Shown piece by piece: positions 1,052 through 60,400 of a stretch of 64,000 bases of DNA; position 1 is the first letter of the stretch; each line of letters opens with the position of its first letter. The notes under the pieces were generated by a model, which saw nothing but the letters and a program-made list of their open reading frames with translations, searched no databases and was not told the DNA's origin. The position numbers were made by a program, and so were the translations under genes. Source of the DNA: Cliona cf. orientalis. Lineage: Eukaryota > Porifera > Demospongiae > Clionaida > Clionaidae. Where the stretch lies: assembly GCA_963930775.1 (NCBI GenBank), contig OZ005698.1:6020501-6084500 (forward strand). The letters are read 5' to 3'.

Positions 1052-2366
1052 CTCTGTCAGCTTTTCAGTGGGGTTTCCTGGAGGGTAGATCAACTGTCAC
1101 TGCTCTACTCCAAGTGTCAGACCAGTGGTTCCAGGCCTTAGAAGATGGGCATGATATATGTGCTGTCTTTTTCAATTTCCGGAAGGCCTTTGATTCTGTG
1201 CCACATGAACCCCTGATGGCCAAAATCTACTCTCTCAATCTTGACGAACGTATTAACGTATGGATTAACAACTACCTCGCCAACAGGCGTCAAGTTGTTG
1301 TCGTCAACGGGGCAGAATCCTCTGATGCGATGGTTTTGTCTGGTTCCCACAGGGCTCTGTGCTAGGCCCTTTATTGTTTCTCATCTACATAGATGATTTG
1401 CCCTGTGTGGTTCAGAGCCTCCTCTCCAAAGTTAACTTGTTTGCAGACAATATTCTCCTTTACCACCTCATATCAACTTCTATGGACTATGTTGTCCTCC
1501 AACAAGCAATTTGCCTAATTGAAGAGTGGTTGGCATCCAACTTCCTGAGTTTCAATGCTATAAAATGCAAGTACATGGTTGTATCGCGAAAACAATTTCC
1601 AATAGTTCCGCCACGTCCCTTGGAACTATTTAATACTCCAATGCAGAAAGTGGACTGCTGCAAGTACCTGGGGCTTCTGATAACCAACAACCTGACTTGG
1701 TCAGCCCATATCAATTCAATTTGCTCTAATGCCAGAAAAATTCTTGGACTAATTTACCGACGATTCTATGCTTCTTCAAACCAAGAGACACTTAAACAAC
1801 TGTATATCTCCCTGGTTAGACCACACCTCGAGTATGCTTGCCAAATTTGAGATCCACACCTTGCTAAAGATAAGAAAGTGCTGGAGGATGTCCAGAAGTT
1901 TGGCTGCAGAGTTGCTTCCCGTCAATGGGATTCGAGCTATCATGATTTACTGGAGCTTTTTGAACTCCCCACGCTGGAGGAACACAGACTTCATCTCAAA
2001 CTCGGCTTGATGTATATGATTGTTCACAATCTCTGCTACTTTCCCAGTACTCCCGAGTTTCGGAACACTTTTTCTGGTCTAAGAAACCAACATCCATTCC
2101 AGTTTGATCCACCATTTGCCCACACAAATTCTTATAAGTTTTCCTTTTTCCCCACACAATGTCAGTCTGGAATTCATTGAACAGTGAGTGTGTCGCATCT
2201 TCCACATATAAACTCTTTATTGAACAGTTAAGAAGTATGTAATTTTTTTCTGTAGTATGCTATAATATATATATTTATTGTCACTTAATTTTTGGGTGCA
2301 CTTAACATTAGTATGTATGCTATTGTGTATCCGTTGCTGAGAATGCATAAAGTATTATAAACAAAT
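1052..2366 (+). pseudogene. Dead CR1/jockey-like LINE, reverse transcriptase fragment
   Basis: The translated pieces line up, in order, with the better-preserved copy on the minus strand at 10928-12223: EGRSTVTALL, then the palm motif AVFFNFRKAFDSVPH, then LGPLLFLIYIDDLP, then KYLGLLITNNLTWSAHI, then the C-terminal thumb region. The reading frame breaks near 1350, near 1850 and again after 2000. The catalytic FADD box reads FADN (about 1440-1455), so a metal-binding aspartate is lost. The endonuclease domain and fingers are absent (5' truncation). The 3' end GCATAAAGTATTATA at about 2346 matches the tail of the 10.8-kb copy, which fixes the element's end near 2366. This is an inactive fossil. 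Confidence 0.85.
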
Positions 2367-2391
2367 TATACACTAAGTAGAAATTACACAC

Positions 2392-2664
2392 CAGGGGCGT
2401 ACCTTAGTTGTTTCCTCGTTGCCCGGAAACCCCCCTTGGCAGTCAGATTCAGCATTATCTTAGTATGACTTAGCTGCTATAGGAAACCCCCTTGGTTTCC
2501 AGACTCCATCTGCAGGCACTAAAATCTCCAGGGGCGTACCTTAGTTGTTTCCTCGTTGCCCGGAAACCCCCCTTGGCAGTCAGATTCAGCATTATCTTAG
2601 TATGACTTAGCTGCTATAGGAAACCCCCTTGGTTTCCAGACTCCATCTGCAGGCACTAAAATCT
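2392..2664. repeat. 137-bp tandem duplication inside the MITE
   Basis: The first 137 bp of the element (from CCAGGGGCG at 2391) is repeated at once from 2528 with essentially no changes. The outer TIR is therefore present twice on the left and once on the right, which points to a very recent slippage or unequal event. Confidence 0.85.
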
Positions 2665-2881
2665 CTTAAAACTTAGCTTAGAACTCTCCTCTGGTGTTTT
2701 TCCTTGTGTTTCTTTGCTAAAATCTTCGAGAATCTGACAAACTGTTACTAAAACATGCTAAACGGCGATCGTTAATTAGAGGGCGTGGCCCCAAAAGTGG
2801 GCGTGGTCGCTCAATTTTTCGCGCGCGCTTCGCGCGCAACTACTTAGAAACCCCCTGTATTAAATCCTGGGTACGCCCCTG
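2392..2881. mobile_element. MITE with CAGGGGCGTA termini, 5-bp TSD
   Basis: The ends CAGGGGCGTACC and GGTACGCCCCTG are inverted, and CACAC is duplicated at 2387-2391 and 2882-2886. The CAG...CTG ends resemble hAT-like non-autonomous elements, but hAT duplications are usually 8 bp, so the superfamily is tentative. It interrupts a CACACTAAGTAG module end. A GCGCGCGCTTCGCGCGC hairpin lies near the right end, as in the relative at 51515-51881. Confidence 0.8.
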
Positions 2882-2883
2882 CA

Positions 2884-3288
2884 CACTAAGTAGATAAATA
2901 AAAAGAATGAAAATTCACGGGGAGTTTGGGAGTACTTGGGAAGATAATTTTTATATGGGCACGCAGAATGGGTCGAAACTAGAGATTTGACCTTGGGGAA
3001 TTTTGATTCATGCCTTATAATTAAAGTTACGGCGCTTTAAAGTTTTCCCATGTGTTTGTACAGGGAAGCCATGCGTTTGCAATGTTTTCCGCCCACGCGC
3101 TACGTGAAAAACGGGGAATACCCGTGGTGTGCGTTATTTAGAAAAGTTTTCAAAATTGGAGTATACGTTGTTTGCTTGCTTTGTATAGCTCTACTGTACA
3201 TTCTAGGTTGTTTACTTGCTTTGTATGGCTCTACTGTGCATCCTAGGTGTATTCTGTGGTTTTCTGGACAATTTTTTTCTGCTTAGTG
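2884..3288. mobile_element. CACTAAGTAG module 1
   Basis: A 405-bp unit runs from CACTAAGTAG to CTGCTTAGTG. Its body (GGGAGTACTTGGGAAGAT, GGCACGCAGAATGGGTCG, AAAGTTACGGCGCTTTAAAG) is shared with the modules at 3308, 4109, 7590, 41589 and 41993. CACTA-like ends suggest a CMC/EnSpm-type non-autonomous element. No transposase is present. Confidence 0.7.
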
Positions 3289-3307
3289 TGCACGCTAGCT
3301 TGTTATA

Positions 3308-4088
3308 CACTAAGTAGAAAAAAATATAGAACAGGGAGGTTGGGAGCATCTGGGGCCAAAATTTTTGCACGGGCACGCAGAATGGGTCGAAACTAGAGAT
3401 TTGACCTTGGGGAATTTTGATTCACGCCTTAGAATTAAAGTTACAGCCCTTTTAAGTATCCCCATATGTTTGTATAGGAAGCCACGCAGTTGCAATGTTT
3501 GAATCCCGGTGTGCGTTATTTAGAAAATCGCTAGGCCAGTACATGCATAGACTACCATGCAGCTGATATTGTATCCAGAGGCTTGCTGAATGGATGAAGA
3601 ATCAGCCACAACAGTAGCTCTCCCATTTTTTGCTGAGGGGTAGGTGGGGTAATACAGCTATAGTTTTACATTATGCATGCATGGATGTGTGGGAAAGTAC
3701 ATGGAGTTGAGAAACATAAGGCCATATAAAATAACTTACTTGATTCTCATCCCCACCCGTCCCAATTTTTACAGGCCGCCTCTATGAATTTTATTGCTAT
3801 CGCGCGTGCGCAGTAGCGACCCTTTACCAAATAATATTATCTCGAAAATATGCTCCAGATACTGCTCTTTCTAGTGTCCTGATGAGTAAAAAATAAAAAT
3901 AAAATGTCTCCTCCCGCCCCTATTTTTTGGAAAAAGGTGGATGAGTGCTTTTCTCCTAGCCTTGTGTGTGTGCTGTGGTGATTTTGAGTACTAGTAGCAT
4001 GTAACGTGTTGCAGGGGCCACTGGTACTGAGCCTCAATTATGGCATTCCACCAATATTTTGTGGTGTTTTATTTTTTTCTGCTTAGTG
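3308..4088. mobile_element. CACTAAGTAG module 2
   Basis: It starts 20 bp after module 1 ends; the linker contains AGCTTGTTATA. The left 220 bp follow the family. From about 3500 (CCCGGTGTGCGTTATTTAG) through 3630 the sequence is nearly the same as 7796-7917, and the right end TTTTTTTCTGCTTAGTG is at 4072-4088. No coding capacity is visible. Confidence 0.65.
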
Positions 4089-5572
4089 TATCGGCTTGCT
4101 TGATTAAACAGTAAGTAGAAAAAAATATAAAAAAATAATTCACAGGGGGGTTGAGAGCACCTAGCACTACTGGAAAATGCTGTAGGAAATGTGTTTTGAA
4201 AGTATATGAATTTTCCACAGATCAGGGGTAATTCTAATAGTAGGAATTGTAGTGGAGAAGTGTGCGAAATTATGCGCGCGTTTTTCTTGGGAAACCATTG
4301 CGATACCACTGGAAAAGTATGATAATACTGTTGAAATTACCCTGTTGGTTTTATATCTATTCTTGGGTATTGTTGGAAAATATATTGTAATTCAATTGGA
4401 AATCACGGTTTAGATATGTTAAAAACGTGTTATAATAATATTGGAAATAAAATGATAATCACTAAATAAAAATAATATAATATTAATGATCACAAGGAAA
4501 ATAATGATATACATAGATCATAATATTATTATAATAGTGATGAAGTGAAAAGAATCATGAATAATAATAATATTATAATGAATGAAGTGATAAGGATTAA
4601 ATAAAGAATATATTGAGCATGCATTGTGATGGATAAAATTTTAATATACATGTACATGTCATAATATATTATAGATATTATTATAGCAATTCATGATCAA
4701 GTTAATTATTAACCTTATTCGTTGTAAATGAGGCGATCCACCTGGGTGGGATTGGCCCTCCGGCTCCTGGTCTTCACGGCCAGTCATTCCCTTTAATATA
4801 ATATTCTGTATACATACCTGCAAATTGGTTAGAATACATAATTATTATTTATTATTAGTAATGTCATATAATATTAAAAGTGTACGACTTACCATTAATT
4901 TTCATCAGGGACTTGATAAAATTAATGTTGTAGATCCCAGGACTACTCCCTTGGGCACAGTGTCACTATAGAAATTTTAGAAATATACCTATCAATAACT
5001 GCAAGTACATGTGTACACTCACCCACTTAAAATTAGCGTTTCCGGACGATCGACCTGTGGCAATATAAAAGCAGCCATAACTTGGCAATGGAATTAGCTA
5101 TGAACAGGAAACACAAACTACGAGTTAGCTGAGTGAATGGCCTTTCTTCTGAACCTTGAATCAAGCTAATCGGTTTACCACATGCTTTGCGATTTTGATT
5201 TTTAGCTCTATGGAAATTTGTATGTAAAAATCTATTTTAGTGCGTAACTCGAACAAGCTTTGTCCTTTCAATAAGAAACATCCAGCGCTGAATAGGCCTC
5301 ATCGAGAGGAAGCTATTGACACCTTAACCGTATGAATTGCTATTGCCGCCACTTTGTGATATCGAGCCGAAAAATCCGGCGTCCGGAATCGCTACTATAA
5401 TTAACATTAATTTTAGTTGTAGTACTACCCCATATGTGCAAACTTAGCTACACAATCTCAATCATAATTAGTGCAAATTCGTACAGATACGCACAAGGGT
5501 TGTCCCGAAGGGCATGATTCACATCCACATACACACGCGTCCATTTGCACACGCACACATACACAAACTAAC

Positions 5573-5664
5573 TTCAAGTTAGTGGAGTTGGAAAGGGTTG
5601 ATTCCTCCACCTCTGGTGATGGGTCGACTGCTTCTGAACTCAAAGGACCGGCGTCGCTCGCCAT
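5573..5664 (-). CDS. Possible first exon inside the CACTA element
   Basis: The ATG at 5664 has a strong context (GGAGATGGCG) and opens MASDAGPLSSEAVDPSPEVE..., an acidic Ser/Pro-rich N-terminus, followed by a possible donor GTTAGT at 5572. No downstream exon or transposase domain could be joined to it. It may be a leftover of the autonomous element's gene or a chance frame. Confidence 0.25.
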
Positions 5665-6014
5665 CTCCTGCAGCTAAGATCTTAACGTGTCAGGATTTCC
5701 TCGAACCAGCTTCTACAAAACTCCATCCATCACCGTCTTCTTGGTTCTGTACTGACATCTATTTTGAGACAAACTTTTATAGTCCAAATGCACCTGTAAG
5801 TCAGTAGCATATTCAATAAATGATCAACACCTTTGACAATTGCAGTTCAGCTAATACGAACTGTATGCGTATTAAAACGATCCAAAGCCCAGCAGTCTCT
5901 ATGGCCATTGATGTTCTTACTGGGACCACCAAGCCGAACAGGAGGCGTCTTCACGAATAGTATTCTCGGTTGGTGCTTGGGCGTATTTTGGCTTAAACTC
6001 TCGCTCGCTTCTTA

Positions 6015-6382
6015 GGCCATACCAAGTTAATTTTTTGTTTCTCGGATTCGGCGGGTCTGTTTTTGGCTGATTTGAAAAAAAAATAAAAAAATTTTAATTA
6101 ACATTCCTCACATTATGATAGTGACAGGCCAGGAGTACTTTTCAAAAAGAGCACTCTTGGTCTACTACTGATAGTGCTATAAGCTACACGATCATCAAAA
6201 CTGCTCGAGAATACAAGTATTCACTACTAAAATGATAGCTGGCTGTCTGTGGACTGGTGATGCTCACGATTTACTAGGCCACACCTCCTGTTAATTAGTT
6301 TTTTTTTATTTTCATGCCGACCACCCTGGTCTGTTTCCAGCTCCTGTTTGTCCGAGAAACAAAACATCAAATTGGTATGGCC
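6015..6382. mobile_element. PIF/Harbinger-like MITE, TTA duplication
   Basis: The TIR GGCCATACCAA / TTGGTATGGCC extends inward with TTTTGTTTCTCGGA-like arms. TTA is duplicated at 6012-6014 and 6383-6385. The 368-bp unit is nested in the 4165-7271 element. A similar right arm (CCCGAGAAACAGAACATTA ... GTGGCCTA) at about 8665-8695 is a stray fragment of the same family. Confidence 0.85.
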
Positions 6383-6784
6383 TTAGTGTGGCGAGCGAGA
6401 GAGGGTTTAGCTCGCTAGACTATAGTTAGCTATCCTTGAGGCTACATTCTTCACGATAAACATGACCGTGTAAATCTAACAATACTTAGTTTCTGTGTAT
6501 AATTTTATAAAGCATCCCGGCACCGCTGCCAGTGCATGCATACGTGATTTGTAGCTTACCTCCTGCCTGAACTCTAAGTTTGCAGACAAACCCGAATCGA
6601 TCCTCCTTTCCTCAGGTACTCATTTTCAATGTGTAGATCTCCACTACTCAAGGCCTTCCTTATAGAGAGCCCGGCATGTTTGACACAATAGATTTTGAAT
6701 ATTGCTGACTCAGCTTGGATCACATGCCTTGCACATGCACTACTTTTCAACACTTTTGCAATACAATTCACACATTATTATTGA

Positions 6785-7140
6785 ATTTAAATGTTTCCAA
6801 CACTTAATAACTATTTCCTATACGATTCTCACACTCTAGAAAATTCCTATACATGAACTCGGAATGATATTTTTCCAACACTCAAAAATTTTGGTTGCTT
6901 TTCCAACACCGTGGTAATTCCTACATGAACTCGGAATGATATTTTTCCAACACTCAAAAATTTTGGTTGCTTTTCCAACACCGTGGTAAAACACGCACTC
7001 TTTCGAATTCCAACACTGATAACATTTCTGATACAAATCAGATGTAGCTGAATCTTATTTCCTATACGATTCTCACACTCTCAAATATTCCTACATGAAC
7101 ATCAATTATTTCCTATATGATTCTCATACTCTCTAAAATT
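6785..7140. repeat. Sub-terminal repeats of the CACTA element
   Basis: A ~70-bp block with TGAACTCGGAATGATATTTT and CAACACTCAAAAATTTTGG occurs twice back to back (6855-6925 and 6932-6990). CCTATACGATTCTCACACTC recurs at 6818, 7060 and, diverged, 7110. These resemble transposase-binding sub-terminal repeats. Confidence 0.7.
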
Positions 7141-7589
7141 TCCAACATGAACTCAGGATAGCATGTTGGAAAACATCCGTGTTTAATACAATTTTCAGAT
7201 ACAATGTCATCAATGTTAACACTTTTTCAACACTATTATTATAATTTTCCAATAAACTATATCCAGTAGTGTAGGTGCATAATTTTTATATGGGCACGCA
7301 GAATGGGTCGAAACTAGAGATTTGACCTTAGGGAATTTTGATTCACGCCTTAGCATTAAAGTTACGGCCCTTTGAAGTTTCCACATATGTTAGTACAGGG
7401 AAGCCATGCATTTGCAATGTTTCCGCCCACGCGCACACATAAACGTGACGACCTTTACCAACTTTTTGACAAAATTGAAATTTGGGCTGCCTGCTTGCAT
7501 TGTATGGTTCCACTATGCACCCAGCTCGATTATATGGTGGTTTTTGGACAAATATTTTTTCTGCTTAGTGTTCAGGTCGCCTTGTTACA

Positions 7590-7918
7590 CACTAAGTAGA
7601 AAAAAAGACAAAATTAATTCATGGAGGGATTGGGAGCACTTGGGAATGTATTTTTTACATAGGCACGCAGAATGGGTCGAAAAACGAGATTTGACATGAG
7701 AAAATTTTGATTCACGCCTTAGAATTAAAGTTACGGCCCTTTAAAGTTCACCCATATGTTTGTATAGAGAAGCCATGTCTTTGCAATGTTTTGAGTCCCG
7801 GTGTGCGTTATTTAGAAAATCGCTAGGCCAGTACATGCATAGGCTACCATGCAGCTGGTATTGTATCCAGAGGCTTGCTGAATGGATGAAGAATCAGCCA
7901 CAACAGTAGCTCTCCCGT
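7590..7918. mobile_element. CACTAAGTAG module 4, right end missing
   Basis: It begins after linker TTCAGGTCGCCTTGTTACA. Over about 320 bp it is nearly the same as 3308-3630, including AATCGCTAGGCCAGTACATG, and then stops at GTAGCTCTCCC, the same point where similarity to module 2 ends. Confidence 0.65.
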
Positions 7919-16496: not shown

Positions 16497-16766
16497 TTTT
16501 TTTTTTTTTTTTTTTTTAAGTCGTTGCGGTTAATAGTTAAGAAAGAATGCTTTGATCTTGCTTTGATGTGGGCAATTACCGGCCTTTTCTTCAGGGGCCA
16601 CTTCCGGTCGCTAATTACACGCGCATAATCATCCCTGGCCGATTCTGGACACGCCCACCTTCGACCAAAAGCACTCGTATGGCCTCTTCGGCCACGCCCC
16701 TTCACGATTCGCTAATTGAATTAGCCATTCCTGACGCTCACGCCCACGCAATTAAATGGTACCTTA
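16497..16766 (-). mobile_element. Short A-tailed interspersed repeat (SINE-like)
   Basis: On the minus strand a ~245-bp body beginning TAAGGTACCATTTAATTGCG and ending ACCGCAACGACTT is followed by a 20+ nt A tail (plus-strand T run at 16497-16517). A near-identical plus-strand copy is at 35809-36056. I find no clear tRNA-like A and B boxes, so the promoter type is unknown. Confidence 0.65.
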
Positions 16767-17162
16767 GGCTCCCGAACTACTCATAATTATTATTATTGTG
16801 AAACTTGCTCAACTTCGTTCTCCTGTCTTTAGTAGTCCCTGCTTGATACTATTTCGCGCTCTCTTCTCACCGGACTCCTTTAGAGGCACCCATATCATCT
16901 GTCCTCGAGCATCATGAGCATGCATTGTCGGGTTGAGGATTCGCGGTCACAAGTTCGCGCCAAATTTTGCAGTCTTGTCACGGCGCGCGCTGCCATGCCG
17001 GCCGGCCATTAACATACGTACGTGCAATACGACACGTGACTACATGGATTCAAATCCTTCTGACAAAGCTGACCAGGTCGGTGGCTGTTCTGGCCCTGAG
17101 TCTCTGTGATCGACCATGACTGGTATCTCTCCGGCCGGTGTTTAGCGAGGAAACTACTGTAT

Positions 17163-34599: not shown

Positions 34600-35800
34600 C
34601 ATTCCTGACTTAATTGATTCTTGTGGGCTTAAATTTAATAGTATTAATGATATCCCAAATGATACTTCCATCTCAAGTTCCATCTGAAGTATTTTCAAAT
34701 GTCCTAGCTCGTATGCTCTCCATGCATGCATGCCGCTGTGATATTTACTGTGCTGACTAACTTCCTTAAACAGAGACGATTGTATAGGCAGTGAATTGCA
34801 TCCATTGTATCATGGTGAAGCTAGAGTACTAGTTCTTGGGCCAAGGGTATGTAGTGAAGTGTGTATATTATGTGCTGTAGTTTGATGGTCAGTGGCATCA
34901 AAAGCGGTATGGTTGCTACGGCTCGGGCCGTAACACCTTAATTTTGAGATTAGCTGTCACTGCATGTGCGATAATAATAATATTATTTTTCCAGTGTGTA
35001 CCCAATAGGCCCCTTTTGGATGAACTCAAGGATCAGCTGCAGGCGGTTTAATCATGATCTGCATGTGTGATCCTAAATGGAGAGCATGACATTGTATTAT
35101 CATCTGCATGTAGCTAATGCTGCCTTGAGAGTTCCCCAATTGAGGCTATCCTTGGCCCTTTCCCGTACATCAGTGACTCCATTGATCCACTCACATAGTA
35201 TAGTTAGAAATCACACTACTCTTTATCCATAATAATATAGCTACTGTTGGCCACAAAACATGTCGCTCCAAGGGAAAAAAAAAACAAAACTAGATGTGTG
35301 AGAAAAAATTGTGAGGGGATTAAAATAGCATTCCAGGACTAACTAGCTATGCTGATCTGCATCCGGAGACAGTTTAGAGCTTGGAGCTTTCCTATATAGG
35401 TGGGAAGTCGTTTACACAGGATGGGGGTGTGACTTGCAAGGATAGTAAAGGGCTCAAGCACTTGAAGGATGCGCTATAGTCTAAGTGTATCACAATACAG
35501 ATAAAAATTGATAACCTGAATGTACGTGTTCTCCATTTATGCAAATTTGAAAATTCCAGGTACATAGCAGACATTGCTGTTCTTGCTTGAGAGAACTAGC
35601 TACCATCACACAGTTCCCGCTTTAATTAAGTAGCCACCGGTCTACCTTGTACCTGGCAACTCCAGAATGGTATCTTCTGAAAGTATATGAAATCACTGTT
35701 ATTACTAAGCGCCACTCTATTATAAGCATGATTCGCAATCGAAGCGAGTTTTTAATGCTTAAATGTAAGCGCCAAGCGAGGTCGGAATTATTTTTTCCTG
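34600..35800. other. Non-coding part of duplication unit 1
   Basis: No gene seen. An A run lies at 35274-35285; AAGCGCCAAGCGAGG and CCTCCT-like palindromic sequence (TGGCGCTTAA) flank the following SINE-like repeat. Confidence 0.5.
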
Positions 35801-35808
35801 GCGCTTAA

Positions 35809-36056
35809 GGTACCATTTAATTGCGTGGGCGTGAGCGTCAGGAATGGCTAATTCAATTAGCGAATCGTGAAGGGGCGTGGCCGAAGAGGCCATACGAGTG
35901 CTTTTGGTCGAAGGTGGGCGTGTCCAGAATCGGCCAGGGATGATTATGCGCGTGTAATTAGCGACCGGAAGTGGCCCCTGAAGAAAAGGCCGGTAATTGC
36001 CCACATCAAAGCAAGATCAAAGCATTCTTGCTTAACTATTAACCGCAACGACTTAT
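35809..36056 (+). mobile_element. SINE-like repeat, plus-strand copy
   Basis: Near-identical to the reverse complement of 16520-16766 over ~245 bp, but without a poly(A) tail: after CCGCAACGACTTA it runs into TTACACACTAAGTAG, the start of the module array. Confidence 0.75.
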
Positions 36057-36079
36057 TACACACTAAGTAGAAAATTACA

Positions 36080-38785
36080 CACTAAGATAAAAGAATTTCC
36101 GTGTGAGTAATGTAATGTAATGTAATGTAATATAAATAAATAATTCTTGGGGCCTGTGGAACGATAGTGTGCAATAATTTTTATATGCAGGTGAAGAATG
36201 GAAGAAATAAAGAAAATGAAATGTATCAAAACTTTAAATTTCACTTTCATACCTCAGAAAACGCCGTGTTTGTTGTGTCAGAGCCATGGGGAAAGTCCCT
36301 GTTTATACGTACGTGCATAGCTCCAGTACATTATCGATCGCATGCTGTGACGTTCCGCGTACGGTAACGCCCACCTAAATTGAAAAATGCAATGAACGAG
36401 CTCTGAGGTTGCACCTAGGAGAATGAGGTCAAGTTCGTTGGCATGTTCCGTTGCTCATAGCGGTGAAAGGAGGAGAGAACGAAGCCTATGGAAAGGCTTG
36501 GAAGCAACATTGGGCAAGAAGAACGGTACCAATGGTCGTCAACTGAAGCGATTCGCTAGTTTGTAATGAGAAAAGCCAATGGAAGGTAAGCTAGTTTGAT
36601 CATAAATCGAGAATGCATGGTATGAATTCTTGTGATGTAGCTAACTAGACTAGTAATAACGTGGCTAAGTAGCTATGATAGTTCCTATGAGTGTGATAGG
36701 CCTCAAACCCAGGTAGAGGGAGGGCTTGGTGTAGCCTCGTACCCAGGCCCTTCAAAAGGAGGAGGAGAAAGGGCCTGGTACACATTGCATGTGCATGTGC
36801 CAAGGGACCTTAGAAAAAAAATGTGGGTTAATCGGATACTCAGGACGGTTAAGGCAGAAACAGCCAGCTTAACTTGTATCAGCCAATTACAACCAATTAC
36901 ATGGCTATGAATCTCATTGACCTCGAGCGACCTCCCATACTTTGCATAGAAGCTGCCGTGGGCAATGGAGTGCAGACGCTATGATTGATCTTCCGGGTAC
37001 AAAATTGGCACTAGACCAGGACCTTTCTTAGACATCTAAGCTCTACCATGGATAGAGAACGCGGTGGAAAGTGGAAATGGTGTCCTTTATCAACCATGCG
37101 CCAACAGTATGTTCATGAATACGTAATTAGCTCGTTTTTGTAGCCTCACAGTGCGCATTTCTTTGCCTAGTTCCAACGCGCTTTATTCTGTGCAGCGTTT
37201 CCAGGCAGTGTTGAATTCTTTACACAGCTAGGACATAGCTGATCCCACTTTCGATGCCATATTCGAGCATTTTTGTACCCGGAAAACAAGAAAATGTATT
37301 TTAAGGAGCCGAACTTTGACCCGCACCTATTTAGTTAATTAAACACCATTGCCATGGTAACGAATGTTTTTAATAAACTTTGTTCTTCATGTAAACTTGT
37401 AGATGTGTGTTTGTGTTGCTGTAACTTTGTACTTCTCTTCAGTTTTAACTTTTGTACCACCATGTTTGGCCATTTTGGTGGTGTAGACACCATCTGATCC
37501 TGCCTTAACTGACCTGAGTACTATTGTATACTGTACGTCATGCAGAACCTGTGAATGATCACTATGGTAATGCAACCGGTCACTATAGAGACCCCAGCGC
37601 ATGCGCATGCAGTATGTACCAGGCACTTTCTCTTCCTTCTTTTGAAGGGTCTGGGAACGAGGCTAGGCTTGGTGCTGCAGGTAGCACAATGGTACTACAG
37701 CAGTGGCGTGCCATCACTTTATCTCCTGGTGTTCTATCACTGCATACACAACAGTCAGTCCATTTCTGCCCCTCCTCGATAGCAACCCTTCTATAACAAT
37801 TCCAAGACGGTGGTGGACCTCGGTAAGCTATTGATATCAGAGCCTGATGGAATTTTTCATTGATCGCTGCCCTTGCAATGCTGACGTCTTATAAGTGATA
37901 TAGAAAGTTGATGCAACCTGGAGCATCTTCCTCCACCACTTCACATGCACTCGTGTATAACAATCTATGTCTGCCAAACTGATCCAGTTTACTGACAAAC
38001 AGCATCATCACCCAGGGGTGTTCCATTGATTCTATTGGCTACAACTTCATCTGGCTGGATCTATTGTAAGTGGACATGTGAGTGGTGTATGTACATGTAT
38101 GTGGTAGAATAATATTATTGTGCATGAGCATGTAACATGTAAACTAATTTTTATGAAAGGCATCACTTGTGTACATGTATGTACTTCACCTACACATGGT
38201 GTACGTACATGTCCATGTATATTCTTCAGTTTCACAATCTTTTGCTTATCCAGGTGACCATGAGGATGTCACACCGCTTTCATCAGACCAATAGGCATGG
38301 ACACTCCCAACTGGCTGCCTCTTCACTGCTGTAGGAACCCCCTTTCGATTTGTGCCTGTGACTGTCATTCCTACTACTTTCTGAAACTGGTAAGTATGGG
38401 ACTAGTATAATACACACACAATGTACCTGTCCACTTAAAGATCGTGCATGTAGCTTTTATTGTGGAATTCTTTCACAAGTGCGAGGACTACACGAGGGGT
38501 CTGACCGAGATCTTCTCGCTCTGTGTATCACACACATATGCACACACATTGTAGGAGGTACCCAGAAGTACGTGTACTCTCAGAGCATAGTATGTGCCTT
38601 GGTACCCCAACAATAGGCTTTCCGTTCACATGTCAGCAAAAGGAAACATGGCTCGTAAACGATGTACAATTAAAGCTGATACATCTATATGGCTGTCACG
38701 TTTACTATTAGGGTAGTGTAAGTATCTGACATTTGAACATGTAATTTATTTAAGTACAGCTTATTACAATTCTTTTATCTTGGTG
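36080..38785. mobile_element. 2.7-kb CACTAAGATAAAAG unit A
   Basis: The ends CACTAAGATAAAAGAATT and AATTCTTTTATCTTGGTG are inverted. It is homologous along most of its length to unit B. It carries an extra 680-bp MITE (36839-37518). A splice-like segment 38255-38391 (TTATCCAG acceptor, CTG|GTAAGT donor) is conserved in B. No transposase domain recognised. Confidence 0.75.
36839..37518. mobile_element. CTCAGG MITE in unit A, absent from unit B
   Basis: The ends CTCAGGACGGTTAAGGCA and TGCCTTAACTGACCTGAG are inverted; TA flanks both sides (36837-36838, 37519-37520). Unit B at 39708-39720 reads CAGATACTATTG uninterrupted, exactly the empty site with a single TA. Tc1/mariner-type target. Confidence 0.9.
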
Positions 38786-38803
38786 TGTGGTTAGCTTGTT
38801 ACA

Positions 38804-41575
38804 CACTAAGATAAAAGAATTTCCATATGAGTAATGTAATGTAATGTAAATAAATAATTCTTGGGGCCTATGGAACGATATTATGCAATAATTTTTATAT
38901 GCAGGTGAAGAATGGAAGAAGTAAAGAAAATGAAATGTATCAAAACTTTAAATTTCACTTTCACGTCTGAGAAAACGCCATGTTTGTTGTTTTAGAGCCG
39001 TGGGGAAAGCCCCTATTTGTACGTACGTGCATAGGGCCAGTACATTTTCGATCGCATGCTATGACGTTCCGCGTACGGTAACGCCCACCTAAATTGAAAA
39101 ATGCAATGAACGAGCTCTGAGGTGGAATGAGGTCAAGTTTGTTGGCGTGGTAGACGTGTTCCGTTGCTCATAGCGGTGGAAGAAGGAGAGAACGAAGCCT
39201 ATGGAAAGGCTTGGAAGCAACATTGGGCAAGAAGAACGGTACCGATGGTCGTCAACTGAAGCGATCCTCTACTTTGTAACGAGAAAAGCCAATGGAAGGT
39301 AAGCTAGTTTGATCATAAATCGCGAATAGGATGTGTGCGTGCGTGTACGAAGTAGAAACTTTAAGTATCATAAGCAGTAGTATTTGTTATGATTGGTGCT
39401 CGATGATGACTAGAGCATCTAATGGAGAGCCACAGGTGACAGCAGTGTCACACAGTGAGGAATTTAATAATATCTAGAAAGTATCAGCTCGTTCAGTACA
39501 GTGTAAGTATGCATGGGGATGTAGCTAGCTAGACTAGTAATAACGTGGCTAAGTAGCTATGGTAGTTCCTTTGGTGTGATAGGCCTCAAACCCTGGTAGA
39601 GGGAGGGCTTGGTGTAGCCTCGTACCCAGGCCCTTCAAAAGGAGGAGAAAGGGCCTGATACACATTGTATGCGCATGCGACGGGGGACCCCAGAAAAATG
39701 ATAATCAGATACTATTGTATACTTTCCATAGAACTGTACGTCATGCAGAACCCGCGAATGATCACTATGGTAACGTGACCAGACGCTATGGAGACCCCAG
39801 CGCATGCGCGTGCAGTATGTATCAGGCCCTTTCTCCTCCACAATGGTACTACAGCAGTGGTGTCACTGGTGTGCCATCACTTTATCTCCTGGTGTTCTAT
39901 CACTGCATACACAACAGTCAGTCCATTTCCACCCCTTCTCCATAGCAACCCTTCTATAGCAACTCCAAGACGGTGGTGGATCTCGGTAGGCTATTGATAT
40001 CAGAGCCTGATGGGGTGTTTCATTGATCGCTGCCCTTGCAATGCTGACGTCTTATAAGTGATATAAAAGGTTGATGGCGACCTGGAGCATCTTCCTCCAC
40101 CACTTTACATGCACTCGTGTATAACAATCTATAGCTGCCAGTTTATTGACAAACAGCATCGTCACCCAGGGGTGTTCCATTGATTCTATTGGCTACAACT
40201 TCATCTGGCTGGATCTATTATAAGTGGACATGTGAGTGGTGTATGTATGTGGCATGTACATGTACATACATAGAATAATATTATTGTGCATGTAAACATA
40301 ATTTTTATGAAAAGGCATCACTTGTGTACATGTATGTACATGTATGTACTTCCCCTACGCTTAGTATACGTACATGTACAAGTATGTTCTTCACCTTCAC
40401 AATCTTTTGCTTATCCAGGTGAGCATGAGGATGTCATACCCGCTGTCATCAGACCGATAGGCATGGACACTCCCAACTGGCCGCCTCTTCACTGCTGTAG
40501 GAACCCCCTTTCGATTTGTGCCTGTGACTGTCATTACTATTTTCTGAAGCTGGTAAGTATGGGACTAGTATAATACACACACAATGTACCTGTCCACTTA
40601 AAGATTGTGCATGTAGCTTTTATTAACCCTCGCTGCAAAGCGTAGGCGGAGGCGTTATTGCAATCGTTTGGTGATTTTTTATCCGTCCGTCCGTCCGTCA
40701 CAACCCTCCTATGCTAAATGGTAAGGGTCGTCTGACAGAAAGTATGCATTCGAGGTATACCGGACACAAAGGAATAGTGAGTCCTGCCCAGTGGTGTAGC
40801 AGTGCGCAGAGTGTATATGTGTGAAGACAGGTGTGTATGCACGTGTGTGTACATGTAGGTGAGTGTGTGTACATTATGCATGTACATTTGTGTTGGTAGT
40901 TGCTTAGCAACCAAAGTTTTTATAGGCAATTTGCCGGCTATGGGAAGGGGTTGGGTCATCATAAAGTAGGCCAATGATGAGCAGAGGTCAACTACCAACA
41001 AAATAGTTATCTACCAGTAATTGGGGTGATACACGTGATACCGTAAACTCTGGTTAATAAGCGCATGCGCTTATAGCGGTAAACGGAACGACAGTATGCG
41101 CTTAATAAAGGATATGCGCTTATATGGCATATAACCACGCCCACAGATGTTTGGGACCCCCTTTCTATTTGTCCGCATCATGCCTGTGACTGTCATTCCT
41201 ACTACTTTCCGAAGCTGGTAAGTATGGGACTAGTATAATACACATGTAATGCACCTTTCCACATAAAGATCGTGCAAGTAGCTTTTATTATGGAATTCTT
41301 TCACAATTGTGAGGACTACACGAGGGGTCTGACCAAGATCTTCTCACTCAATCAGTGTATCACACACATATGCACACACATTGTAGGAACCCAGGTGTAC
41401 TAGCAGAGAGAATCTATGCCTTGGTACCCCAAGGATAGGCTTCCCCTCCACGGCTCTTAAACAACATACATAAGACTCACCTGTGGCTGTGTTGCCATTA
41501 GGGTAGTGTAAGTACCTGACATTTGAACATCTTATTTAATTAAGTACGACTTGTTACAATTCTTTTATCTTAGTG
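38804..41575. mobile_element. 2.8-kb CACTAAGATAAAAG unit B
   Basis: The ends are CACTAAGATAAAAGAATT and AATTCTTTTATCTTAGTG. It lacks the 680-bp MITE of A but has a (GTCC)n element at 40624, and the segment CTGTGACTGTCATT ... GGTAAGTATGGGACTAGT appears twice (40515-40580 and 41168-41242), so the insertion came with a local duplication. The conserved splice-like segment is at 40419-40553, open in one frame (...GMDTPNWPPLHCCRNPLSIC...), unrecognised. Confidence 0.75.
40622..40830. repeat. AACCCTC hairpin plus (GTCC)n, long form
   Basis: Shares the head with 21158 and a longer tail with 54437 (ATGCTAAATGGTAAGGGTCG and AGTCCTGCCCAGTGGTGTAG), so the true element is at least 190 bp. Confidence 0.75.
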
Positions 41576-41588
41576 TGTGGTTAGCTTG

Positions 41589-41948
41589 AAAAAAAAAAAG
41601 ATTTCTTTGCAGTAATAATGTTTGGAGGGATTGGGAGCACTTGGGGAGATAATTTTTATATGGGCGCGCAGAATGGGTCGAAACACAAGATTTGACATGA
41701 GAAAATTTTGATTGACACCTTAGAATTAAAGTTATAGCCCTTTGAAGTATCCCCATATGTTTATATAGGAAGCCATGCACTTGCAATGTTTGCCCATAAA
41801 AAAAATTACGGGCGCGCGGGGTACGTTGACGACCCTTTACCGAATATTGTGTATATGGCTATTTGGATGCCTGCTTGCATTGTATGGCTCTACTATGCAT
41901 CTAGCTCGACTCTGGTGGTTTTCGGACCATTTTTTTTTCTGCTTAGTG
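41589..41948. mobile_element. CACTAAGTAG module 5, left end replaced by A run
   Basis: The body matches modules 1-4 (GGGAGCACTTGGGGAGATAA, GCAGAATGGGTCGAAACA) and ends TTTTTTTTCTGCTTAGTG. Instead of CACTAAGTAG the left side is a run of A followed by GATTTCTTTGCAG. Confidence 0.65.
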
Positions 41949-41992
41949 TGTGGTCCCCTTGTTACACACTAATTACACACTAAGTAGTTATA

Positions 41993-42576
41993 CACTAAGG
42001 CCCCTCCAAATCAATTAGTAGTTTCTCATCCCCTCTGAGCTCAAAATTGATGCGGGCGGGCGGTGGTAATGGTCGTAAATATGTGTAATTTTTTTATGGA
42101 AATGGTCGTCAAAACCGCTTGCAAAAAAGGATGCGGTATACTTTTGCATTGTGCTCCTAATCACAAAATGCATGCGGGCGGAAATTAAGGGGGGATGAGA
42201 AACTACTAGTTGATTTGGAGGGGCCTAAGTAGAAAAAAAAAGCATATTTAAATATGGGGGGTTTGGGAGCACTTGGGGGGATAATTTTTACATGGGCACG
42301 CAGAATGGGTCGAAATTAGAGATTTGACGCAGGGGAATTTTGATTCACGCCTTAGAAATAAAGTTATGGCCCTTTGAAGTTTTCCCATATGTTTGTATAG
42401 GAAGCCATGCATTTGCAATATTTTCTACGTGAGGGGCGGGGCCACGCGCGCACATCAACGTGACGACCATTACCCACTTTACTCAAAATGGATGTATAGG
42501 CTGCCTGCTTGCATTGTATGGCTCTACTATGCATCCAGCTCGATTATATGGTAGTTTTTGGACTTTCTGCTTAGTG
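41993..42576. mobile_element. CACTAAGTAG module 6, split by a MITE
   Basis: CACTAA and TAAGTAGAAAAAA are separated by the Harbinger MITE; the body then follows the family to TTTCTGCTTAGTG at 42576. Confidence 0.7.
41999..42225. mobile_element. PIF/Harbinger-like MITE, TAA duplication
   Basis: GGCCCCTCCAAATCAATTAG and its complement are inverted over ~35 bp. TAA is duplicated at 41996-41998 and 42226-42228, inside CACTAAGTAG. The termini are related to 33976-34248. Confidence 0.9.
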
Positions 42577-42639
42577 TCTGGTCTCCTTGAAAAAAAAAGA
42601 TTTAAATTACAGTAAGTACAGTATGTATTTCCTTATTTA

Positions 42640-57402: not shown

Positions 57403-60400
57403 CTCTGTAATCTTTCCACTTCCTGCTTCTGCTGCTCCTCCTGCTGGCGTTTGGCCTGAAGTTCTTGATGCAGCGCTCCAATCTCGTGATTCTTATCCCT
57501 CAAAAGCTCAGTTAGTACTGTCCGACTGCCAGATTGCGGCGAAATATCCCTCGATGGAATAGCCTAATACATGTATACAAAATAATTACCAATACTAGTA
57601 TGCTAGACATGCCACAAGCAGTGAACTTCAGCTTAATGACTTGATTGAATTACTGTAGTATCCCGGGTAAGCGCCCATGGATGCTTACCCATGATTTCGG
57701 CCTGTATGGGCGCTTACCCGGGATATAATTCCCATATGTTGTATAGAAGCTGTCACATTGACCCCTTGAAATGCACTACATGGGCACTTATAATTACCCG
57801 GGAGTGAGCACCTTTCCTGGGACACTGGTACCAAACAATCTTACTACCCTGGCCCCTCAATCCAAACAAAAGAAAGTAGGTCAATTACAAGGTTTATTGT
57901 TAGTATACATGGAATTTTTTTTACTCTTGATAGCCATAGATATGCATTTTTATGCTAAAAATATATACCGTATGGCCGGAAATTTTCGAGGGATCCAATT
58001 TTCGCGGAAGGCCCATCTTCAAAGATTTCGCGATCTAATTTTTGCGGATGGACGTTCCAGGGTTGCTCCACCCACAATATCCATCCGGCTCCACCTCTTA
58101 CTGCACGTGCGCCGCGGCTCAAATCTCGTTGGCCAAAAAAAAAAAACAGCAAGCGATCGATCGATCGTAATTGTACTTAGCAGAGATCGAGAAATGGCAC
58201 AAAAGTCGCATAATATGATCGTGGCTAGGGATATTATTTTGTGCAGAACAAGCTCAATAACAATGAACTGGTGTGAAGTAAACCAATCCAGCTGAGCAGC
58301 GGCATGCACCACGATGGCCACGCCCCCTGTTATCACGCGTGCGCGCGTGCGTTTAGGCTTTTTATTTCGCGGATTTAATTTTCGTGGACCGCCAGTCAAC
58401 CGCGAAAATTGGCTCCCTCGAAAATTTCCAGCCATACGGCATTACCGTAGTCTACCATAACTCGCTGATTTCGCCGTACTGGGCGCTTACCATGTGCAAA
58501 AATTGAACTAGGCGGGGCCATTTTTGTGGGCGTGGCAGTAAGCTAGATACATAATATACTCGTGGTATAAGCGCGCGTTTTTACCTGCATGTACCTTGAG
58601 ATAGAGAAAAGTTTAAACCACACAAGCTGCCAGAGAAAGTTAGCTAGTGATCTGAATCAGAGAAGGGATCGAGATCGTCGACATCGTCATCTTCGCCGAT
58701 CAGCTGATTGGCTTTATTGTCGCCGTCTTCGAGATCCCTCGGTCCTTCTTCTCGAATGAAGTGATCTTCGGACCCATCGACTACGTTTTTTTTTTTTTTT
58801 TTTTTTTTTTTTGTCTATGATATTTCTTGCAGTTAGGAATGCAAAGGACACAAAAAGTAGCAATATAAAAAATGCTAGTGATAAACATGTGCCCGTATAT
58901 TAGATTTAAACAAGGATATGGAGGAAATGACAGTATTATTAGTGAGTGAGGTGGGTAGTGAATTCCATAGTCTTATACTACGAGGTACATACGAGTTGTA
59001 ATAATAACAAGTACGAGCAAAAGGACAAATAAATGAATGTGGATTTGAAGAACGAGTGACTCTTTGAACGTCATTGTGACAATAAATATTATCAGGAAAA
59101 TGAAATAAACCATGGATTATTCTGAACATAGAGCACAAGTCTAGATAAGCTCTTCTTTGCTGCATGTTTGGTACAGAGAAGAGTTGCAGCAGTTCCTCAT
59201 AATTTGCATCCCAGTTCTTGGCACACATGCGTAAGGCAAATTTTTGGACTCCTTCAATCGAGTTTATTTCCCCAACTTTATATGGACTCCATACTTGGCT
59301 TGCATACTCCAGGTTGGGACGAACTAGGGAGATGTACATTTGAAAGAGGCTCTCTGAGCTGGAGTATTGGTAAAAACGGCGGTACACAAGTCCAAGTATC
59401 TTTCTTGCCTTTGTGCAGAGATTTTTCACGTGTTGAGTCCAAGATAGATTATCGGATAGCAATAGGCCAAGGTACTTATAAGTAGGTACTCGTTCAAGCA
59501 GCTGCCCACACAAGTGCAATTGTGGAGTGAATAGAGAATCAGGTTGAATTTTTCGTGAGACAAGCATGAACTTGCATTTCTGCACATTGAAGTGCAGATA
59601 GTTGCTGTCGACCCAGTCGGAGATCTTGTTCACATCCTGTTGAAGCAGATGGAAGTCACTTTGGCAAGAAATTGGTCTGTAAAGAAGCATGTCGTCTGCA
59701 GTGATAAACATGTGCCCGTATATTAGATTTAAACAAGGATATGGAGGAAATGACAGTATTATTAGTGAGTGAGGTGGGTAGTGAATTCCATAGTCTTATA
59801 CTACGAGGTACATACGAGTTGTAATAATAACAAGTACGAGCAAAAGGACAAATAAATGAATGTGGATTTGAAGAACGAGTGACTCTTTGAACGTCATTGT
59901 GACAATAAATATTATCAGGAAAATGAAATAAACCATGGATTATTCTGAACATAGAGCACAAGTCTAGATAAGCTCTTCTTTGCTGCATGTTTGGTACAGA
60001 GAAGAGTTGCAGCAGTTCCTCATAATTTGCATCCCAGTTCTTGGCACACATGCGTAGAGTTTAGAGTTTTATATTATTATATATTTGATATTGCTATATA
60101 GAAACAGTGATCTTGTAAATTTTTCTTGATGGGCGCTTGCCATGTTGATCTAGGCGCAGTCTACCTGGGCGCTTACCATTCGACTGGGCAAAACAGTTAC
60201 CTGGGCGCTTACCCGGGAGTGGGCGCTTACGCGGGAGACTACGGTATTTTGGTGTGTGCAACACCAAGAGTCGACCTGACATTGTACATGCACGTACGCT
60301 GACCTGGCATGGTACACATCAGCATTGTGCCATTCTATAGCACACAATACCGCCATAATTATTATTATAATATACATGTAACTAGTGACATGCAGGGCCT

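Follow-up and report, generated by a model that had tools for sequence, protein, structure and literature searches.

Known Helitron groups and the sponge locus

The described groups of Helitron (rolling-circle) transposons differ in their ends and in their targets. Members of the superfamily encode a protein with an HUH Rep and a helicase between their ends, and in Helentrons an endonuclease domain is fused to this protein. Helitron1 has the ends 5'-TC and CTRR-3' and inserts at A^T (PMC3627910, PMC5148889). Helitron2 inserts at TTTT^T/C and has a 3' repeat about 20-30 nucleotides (nt) from its end, and Helitron2 elements with the Rep reversed are also noted (Bao and Jurka 2013, PMC3627910). 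In the Helentron/HINE elements there is a 3' palindrome, and the distance of the 3' subterminal inverted repeat from the end is about 38-60 nt (Thomas et al. 2014, PMC4067079). In the FoHeli elements of Fusarium, several 5' termini accompany one 3' terminus, which was attributed to self-insertion, and one copy had landed 2 bp upstream of the 5' end of a sibling; circular intermediates have been reported for Helitrons (PMC5148889). Here, we analysed a 64,000-nt stretch of the Cliona cf. orientalis genome (the window, G000:C10:6020501-6084500, in an assembly of 216.8 Mb and 149 contigs), in which modules bounded by CACTAAG and CTTAGTG form an array at 36056-42589. We read these modules as non-autonomous copies of one Helitron-like family that insert at A-runs, including those in the 5' ends of their siblings, without target-site duplication, and give this reading a probability of about 0.77. 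The modules are small non-coding transposons, probably of the Helitron kind.

The ends and the target polarity of the family fully fit none of Helitron1, Helitron2 and Helentron, and we call it Helitron-like. Its asymmetric inverted repeats, the lack of a duplication and the T-run/pyrimidine target together point to Helitron2-like elements. As in Helitron2, the inverted repeats are short and asymmetric with one nearer its end, the 5' base is T, there is usually no duplication, and the target is a T-run bordered by T or C, which in the sponge is seen on the other strand. The distance of the 3' repeat from the end is 12-13 nt, against about 20-30 nt in Helitron2, and the hairpins at both ends were not found in the elements folded, one subfamily of the short A modules and the longer B elements. 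With the Helentron/HINE group the family shares non-coding derivatives that outnumber the coding partner, T-rich targets, and subterminal inverted repeats of which the 5' one is a few nt from the end; it differs in the distance of the 3' repeat (not about 38-60 nt) and in the absence of palindromic repeats or a 3' palindrome from the same folded elements. The likeness to Helitron1 consists of an HUH-like Rep domain in the putative partner and the lack of a target duplication, whereas the start is TT (TTAN) and not TC, the end is CTTG and not CTRR, no 3' hairpin was found, and the target is not A^T but lies beside an A-run, the right flank being mostly an A-run or a sibling head. FoHeli has asymmetric ends, some without a 3' hairpin, and multiple 5' termini per 3' terminus, as here; the accounts of it concern single cases and short 5' repeats, against 637 direct junctions in the sponge, where the A-run target is within the element's own 5' end. 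Our literature search, made largely without subscription papers, turned up neither this family nor self-targeting on a comparable scale.

Element ends and the junctions between modules

On the strand that carries the putative Rep gene, each copy extends from a head, TTANACACTAAG, at its 5' end to a tail, CTTAGTGT followed by 8 or 9 nt and CTTG, at its 3' end. ACACTAAG is 4 nt from the 5' end and CTTAGTGT is 12-13 nt from the 3' end, which gives the asymmetric terminal inverted repeats known from Helitron2, though at distances other than those published. The letters of the tail spacer vary by subfamily. Modules of about 0.39 kb (A, with several subfamilies) and of 2.7-2.8 kb (B; 36075-38798 and 38799-41588) were found, as a first-pass annotation of this DNA had described.

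That annotation had also described recurrent junctions of CTTAGTG, a conserved linker and CACTAAG, some of them 30 kb away, and had argued that independent insertions would not share a linker. The junctions are real. The window has 19 occurrences of ACACTAAG, compared with 2.88 (standard deviation 1.79) in shuffled sequence, and the 32-nt pattern CTTAGTGTN8CTTGTTAYACACTAAG was found 175 times in the assembly and never when read backwards. Direct tail-head junctions in the window are at 38779-38810 (one mismatch to the consensus given earlier) and 41942-41973 and, in a second array, at 3282-3314 and 7564-7596. The linker is no separate entity: it is the tail of one element followed by the head of the next, with a conserved frame and a middle that varies by subfamily. 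The argument against independent insertions fails, since what is shared consists of the elements' own fixed termini.

Genome-wide, exact tails (TCTGCTTAGTGTN{8,9}CTTG) number 2866, and the reversed controls gave none. They are followed by AAAA in 1598 cases, directly by a sibling head (TTANACACTAA) in 637 and by TTTT in none; 631 are unclassified. An A-run after CTTG, earlier noted as an exception at three places, is the commonest case. Exact heads (TTANACACTAAGTAGAAAAAA, with the six-A run) number 1717, and there are 76 B-type heads and 76 B-type tails; the genome-wide counts for large families may be lower bounds. The base preceding heads was A or G in 126 of 131 cases, CTTG junctions included. 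Spy-type elements insert between AAA and TTT, and an insertion of this type was rejected on the absence of TTTT after exact tails.

A-runs as target and nesting without target duplication

The array of the window stands in the A-run of a host repeat. The left flank, at 35800-36055 on the plus strand, ends in ATTAACCGCAACGACTTA and has a 96% identical inverted copy at 16498-16772 (minus strand), which reads CGACTTA(A)n GCTTATTAGG with the A-run unbroken and represents the empty site. The pattern of the uninterrupted host site, which leaves 2-32 letters free, has 125 matches genome-wide, one of them in the window; among the 100 matches listed, 99 are A-rich at this point by eye and one (C1:35118282) is not. 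Family members occupy the A-run of this repeat at several points in L045, L046, L052, L053 and L056. The A-run is the target.

We examined 24 loci, the window and L043-L065, with 92 tails and 109 heads. Twenty of these regions (L043-L062) come from the first tails listed on C1, at 1.0-4.5 Mb, with the 8-nt spacer, the 9-nt type being under-sampled; L063 and L064 were picked for long B elements, and the junction scans covered siblings on the same strand. Of the 92 tails, 31 precede a sibling head, with no gap in 21 cases; 25 run into a headless sibling and 36 into other DNA. Ten of these 36 have no A behind them and, since two mismatches were allowed, are possibly false matches. In all, 56 tails abut a sibling, and mostly single modules with different flanks, the contrary case raised in the first-pass annotation, were not seen. 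A/T-runs of at least 8 number about 46,000 per genome, a rough extrapolation from 11 runs in the window, against 1717 exact sibling heads, and yet more than half of the sampled tails abut siblings; the comparison is a rough one. Behind the outermost tails of the 24 loci the A-run measures 0 to 29 As. Tails on both strands were seen in one locus of the 24 (L044).

Many junctions show the signature of nesting, with a 5' stub upstream and the matching remainder downstream. Stubs, defined by a next head within 45 nt, make up 22 of the 109 heads and are cut mostly at position 11 (9) and position 15 (7). In four cases the joined flanks restore the uninterrupted target without a duplication, as in the Helitron superfamily. 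The B element of L056 lies within an A-run, with 3 As before and 4 after it, and the siblings in L052 and L053 have 7. In L064 a B element lies at TTAAACACTAAG^TAGAAAA, and the joined flanks read CACTAAG followed by TAGAAAA; a sibling in L051 has an extra A further on. The insert of L054 lies at TTACACACTAA^GTAGAAAA, and the joined sequence equals a sibling in L051 at 59 of 60 bases. In the window, a pair of B elements lies at TTACACACTAAGTAGAAAA^AAAA of an A module, and the joined flanks read TAGAAAA followed by AAAAAAAAAAAGATTT. At L064 and L054 the target is no homopolymer, which excludes a hidden duplication at both. Rolling-circle concatemers, amplification and self-insertion are all possible sources of tandem arrays derived from Helitrons; the empty sites restored here show self-insertion at scale, into the ends of siblings and in a fixed orientation to the A-run.

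A putative Rep partner

The element is probably mobilised by a Helitron-like Rep, as judged by association. A search of the genome with the Helitron_like_N profile gave 180 candidates, 150 of which were scored; by hand count, well over half of these 150 hits are on C1 between about 15 and 36 Mb. The test for Rep-tail association took in 121 of the 150 (counted manually), leaving out the 29 weakest, and covered C1 to C7:9.36 Mb with one exact tail type (CTTAGTGTGCACGGTAGCTTG), for which 100 of 171 tails were listed. Of the 17 hits in this range with profile start 84 (start-84), six have a same-strand tail downstream, at 6349, 6606, 6665, 9668, 10773 and 12583 bp, and none has an opposite-strand tail on either side. 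On C1, 6 of 12 start-84 hits have such a downstream tail, against at most 3 in 20000 randomisations. Among the 78 other Rep hits, there were one same-strand downstream tail (C3:7375470, profile start 102, at 6627 bp) and one opposite-strand tail.

The list of heads is complete to C1:9.84 Mb. Below this point both start-84 hits have a same-strand head upstream, at 1.9 and 2.2 kb; of the other two Rep hits there, one, of another type, has a head 5.65 kb upstream and one has none. From the head and tail spacings, Rep-bearing elements would measure about 9 kb or more. The Rep piece L066 (384 bp, 128 amino acids, from C1:5666785) contains no stop, gives a Helitron_like_N match at 2.7e-16 and has RGAIHWHMLI at its end, where we take HWH to be an HUH-like motif. 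The Rep domain with HWH is found at loci associated with the family ends, and the tail-linked locus C1:36272953 has an open frame of 2131 amino acids. A sequence comparison of the Rep piece with solved structures gave no related protein (best E 0.85).

The top 12 Rep hits, which are of other types (L031-L042), showed no family ends within their 3.6 kb, only a few partial matches with at most 2 mismatches, and the homology breaks between L032 and L033 are unlike these termini. L065 contains a tail 11.8 kb downstream of a Rep hit, C1:5666785, and the last ~150 bp before it look A-module-like by eye; this end may be that of a truncated module or the 3' end of that Rep element itself. The large B element of L064 was rejected as a source of transposase, its open reading frames (ORFs) of 241 and 107 amino acids lying inside a nested insert. 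This 3-kb insert (~1081-4149) has inverted ends GTTGATTTCAATTGCG, and its two minus-strand ORFs look, by eye, like a Tc1/IS630-type transposase.

Alternative explanations

Several observations weigh against reading the modules as copies of one Helitron-like family that land in one another. As to the Rep genes, no complete head-Rep-tail autonomous copy was found among the loci read; for 11 of the 17 start-84 hits the list shows no downstream tail of the searched type, a weaker start-84 hit among the 29 left out (C1:26324071) has no listed tail within 15 kb, and two start-84 hits have a same-strand tail upstream. As to the ends, the strand of the A-run relative to the Rep is opposite to what TTTT^T/C would lead one to expect: on the Rep strand the site is A or G and then the A-run, and the Helitron2 motif is matched on the complementary strand only. 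No convincing terminal hairpin was obtained when one A subfamily and B were folded as DNA, with z from -0.82 to -1.09 for five pieces and +0.60 for the B tail. As to the arrays, simple 11-nt stubs outnumber GTAG remainders by 8 to 1 in the sample, for which nesting alone is insufficient. Head and tail variants co-occur (GTGGTCCC with TTAC in 20 of 20 cases, TCAGGTCGC with TTAA in 6 of 6); the next head also tends to match the tail variant (10 of 11 and 3 of 4), so this pairing cannot separate the models. Moreover, adjacent modules have a median identity of 0.775 against 0.683 for modules of different loci (over 260 nt; 40 adjacent pairs in the sampled loci and 400 different-locus pairs), and some local duplication does occur.

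Separately, in the GTGGTCCC subfamily (for example in L048 and L049), the GGACCA that precedes the T-run is complementary to a TGGTCC of the tail, and the two can pair over 6 bp across the inverted repeat (-3.3 kcal/mol, z -0.8); this pairing is perhaps a remnant of a terminal hairpin.

The Rep genes might carry the family's ends only through copies that inserted beside or into Helitrons, the mover being another transposase that leaves no duplication. The lack of a complete autonomous copy, the start-84 hits without the searched tail and the failure of ends and target polarity to match a named Helitron group all speak for such a bystander Rep. We nevertheless consider it unlikely: the tail spacing recurs (the three shortest distances of the start-84 hits and the 6627 bp of the start-102 hit), the downstream tails of start-84 hits are all on the same strand, and the other Rep hits are nearly devoid of tails.

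Quite unlikely as the general explanation is the one proposed in the first-pass annotation, in which ready-made concatemers re-insert from circular or multimeric intermediates or a unit with a junction undergoes amplification. Helitrons in tandem and circles with joined ends have been reported elsewhere (PMC5148889), and the element probably belongs to this class. The 637 direct tail-head junctions, the direct abutment of the two B elements in the window and the closeness of neighbours would suit it; 5 of the 40 adjacent pairs are at least 0.91 alike, and one, in L047, is identical and probably a local duplication. As the main route it fares badly, since 39 of the 40 adjacent pairs have a closer match in another sampled locus, although this "best elsewhere" is a maximum over many modules set against a single neighbour, which favours "elsewhere". 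In addition, 25 of the 92 tails precede a headless sibling, which is not a head-tail fusion, and the two B elements are 79-91% identical in matching pieces (a difference of 9-21%), with some segments unshared. Many arrays mix subfamilies that differ in tails and bodies, and amplification of one unit cannot produce them. Both forms of this proposal look like a minor route to the arrays.

Short interspersed nuclear elements (SINEs) and long interspersed ones (LINEs) carry their own poly(A) tail. A SINE-like retroposon ending in CTTG and poly(A) and primed at A/T-rich sites would account for the frequent AAAA after exact tails, but it is very improbable here: the A-run is already there at uninterrupted host sites, the As flanking the L056 insert sum to the siblings' seven, and no A-tail is seen at non-A targets (CTTG followed by TAGAAAA, CACTAAG or TTACAC). 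Cut-and-paste CACTA (EnSpm/CMC) elements have terminal CACTA/TAGTG and a 2-3 bp duplication; the letters of the inner inverted repeat recall them, but membership is hardly credible, as the elements reach 4 nt before ACACTAAG and 12-13 nt past CTTAGTGT, the joined flanks have no duplication, and a CACTA-like element of the window, at 4165-7271, has CACTACTGG/CCAGTAGTG ends and TAG flanks and looks different.

Proposed mechanism

In our reading of the modules as copies of one Helitron-like family, each is inserted beside an A-run, its head usually after A or G and its tail abutting the A-run or stopping a few nt short of it. Each copy would then itself be a landing pad: a typical copy has an A-run of its own about 15 nt into its 5' end, and its CTTG often remains beside the target A-run. 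A later copy could enter between CTTG and the A-run, which would create CTTG followed by TTACAC, the "linker", or it could enter the first 11-20 nt of a sibling in the same orientation, which would leave a 5' stub upstream and a headless body (for example CTTG followed by AAAA) downstream. If a Rep began at an outer stub and ended at the first tail, it would carry off units with several heads and one tail. Such units would explain the surplus of heads, 6 to 4 in the window, and that of stubs over GTAG remainders in the sample. Self-insertion and then a transfer that begins at the outermost 5' end and runs to the first 3' end was proposed for FoHeli elements (PMC5148889); such a course would make the head the 5' end, in agreement with the Rep genes. 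The data establish the ends, the target and the orientation to the A-run, the lack of a duplication, the nesting and the mixing of subfamilies, whereas the link to the Rep is one of association. The single-strand rolling-circle transfer, the circles and the multi-head step are inferred.

We tentatively suggest, as a possibility that we would not yet favour, that the family represents a distinct Helitron-like lineage with inverted target polarity (the A-run downstream of the 3' end on the Rep strand), hairpin-free asymmetric ends and a Rep that actively prefers the first 11-20 nt of siblings, with cuts after TTACACACTAA and TTACACACTAAGTAG. If so, the mixed-subfamily arrays would be assembly lines in which composite elements are made and launched again. 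The family, with its hundreds of junctions and clear target polarity, could serve to study target choice by Helitron-like Rep proteins and the origin of multi-ended, chimeric elements.

Organisation of the two arrays in the window

The array at 36056-42589 consists of two elements of the B type, B1 and B2 (2.7-2.8 kb each), and two modules of the A type, A1 and A2 (~0.4 kb each), all on a single strand. It holds six heads (TTANACACTAAG or shortened) and four tails (CTTAGTGT-N8-CTTG, one with an altered base); these surplus heads, like an unrelated inverted-repeat element at 41999-42225, go beyond the earlier account. The array begins with the 5' stub of A1, TTACACACTAAGTAGAAAA (36056-36074), which is split from its remainder by the B pair; when 36074 is joined to 41589, the 5' end of the family is restored. 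B1 (36075-38798, 2724 bp) has the head TTACACACTAAGATAAAAG and the tail CTTGGTGTGTGGTTAGCTTG, with one change from the usual B tail, and is directly abutted by B2 (38799-41588, 2790 bp). The rest of A1 (41589-41961) begins with an A-run and ends in the tail CTTAGTGTGTGGTCCCCTTG. It is followed by two more 5' stubs, TTACACACTAA (41962-41972) and TTACACACTAAGTAG (41973-41987), whose cuts at 11 and 15 are the most frequent stub cuts in the sampled loci. The head of A2 (41988-42589), TTATACACTAA, is split by the element at 41999-42225, which is short, has GGCCCCTCCAAATCAA inverted ends and is bordered by TAA on both sides; the module then runs on to the tail CTTAGTGTCTGGTCTCCTTG. The A-run after this last tail (42590-42610) resembles, by eye, a truncated 5' remainder of a sibling (AAAAAAAAAGATTTAAAT), and the right flank of the host repeat was not seen there. 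Between 35800 and 42700 only short ORFs were found, four of them of at least 80 amino acids.

The second array, at 2366-7900 and also on the plus strand, is more broken. Its left end (2366-2391) is a stub, TTATACACTAAGTAGAAA, with the start of the next head, TTACACAC. The module at 2882-3302, with the tail CTTAGTGTGCACGCTAGCTTG, has its head interrupted by a CAGGGGCG...CGCCCCTG repeat (2392-2881), which contains a 137-bp tandem duplication (2391-2527 and 2528-2664, 100% identical). The next module (3303-4102) has the head TTATACACTAAG and the tail CTTAGTGTATCGGCTTGCTTG. That at 4104-7584, with the head TTAAACAGTAAG and the tail CTTAGTGTTCAGGTCGCCTTG, is split by the CACTA-type insertion at 4165-7271, which is 3107 bp long. 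The head of the next module (from 7585, followed to 7900), TTACACACTAAG, lies directly against the previous tail.

Elsewhere in the genome, several loci share module pairs of equal spacing, either 821 bp or 477-480 bp (C1:12014335, C1:12068945, C6:3730209, C6:4221759; C1:15611832, C3:7946476, C3:7954979), which may be segmental copies or composite elements moved as one. Finally, the window contains a 300-bp direct repeat, at 58877-59176 and 59700-59999, reported as 100% identical and 823 bp apart.

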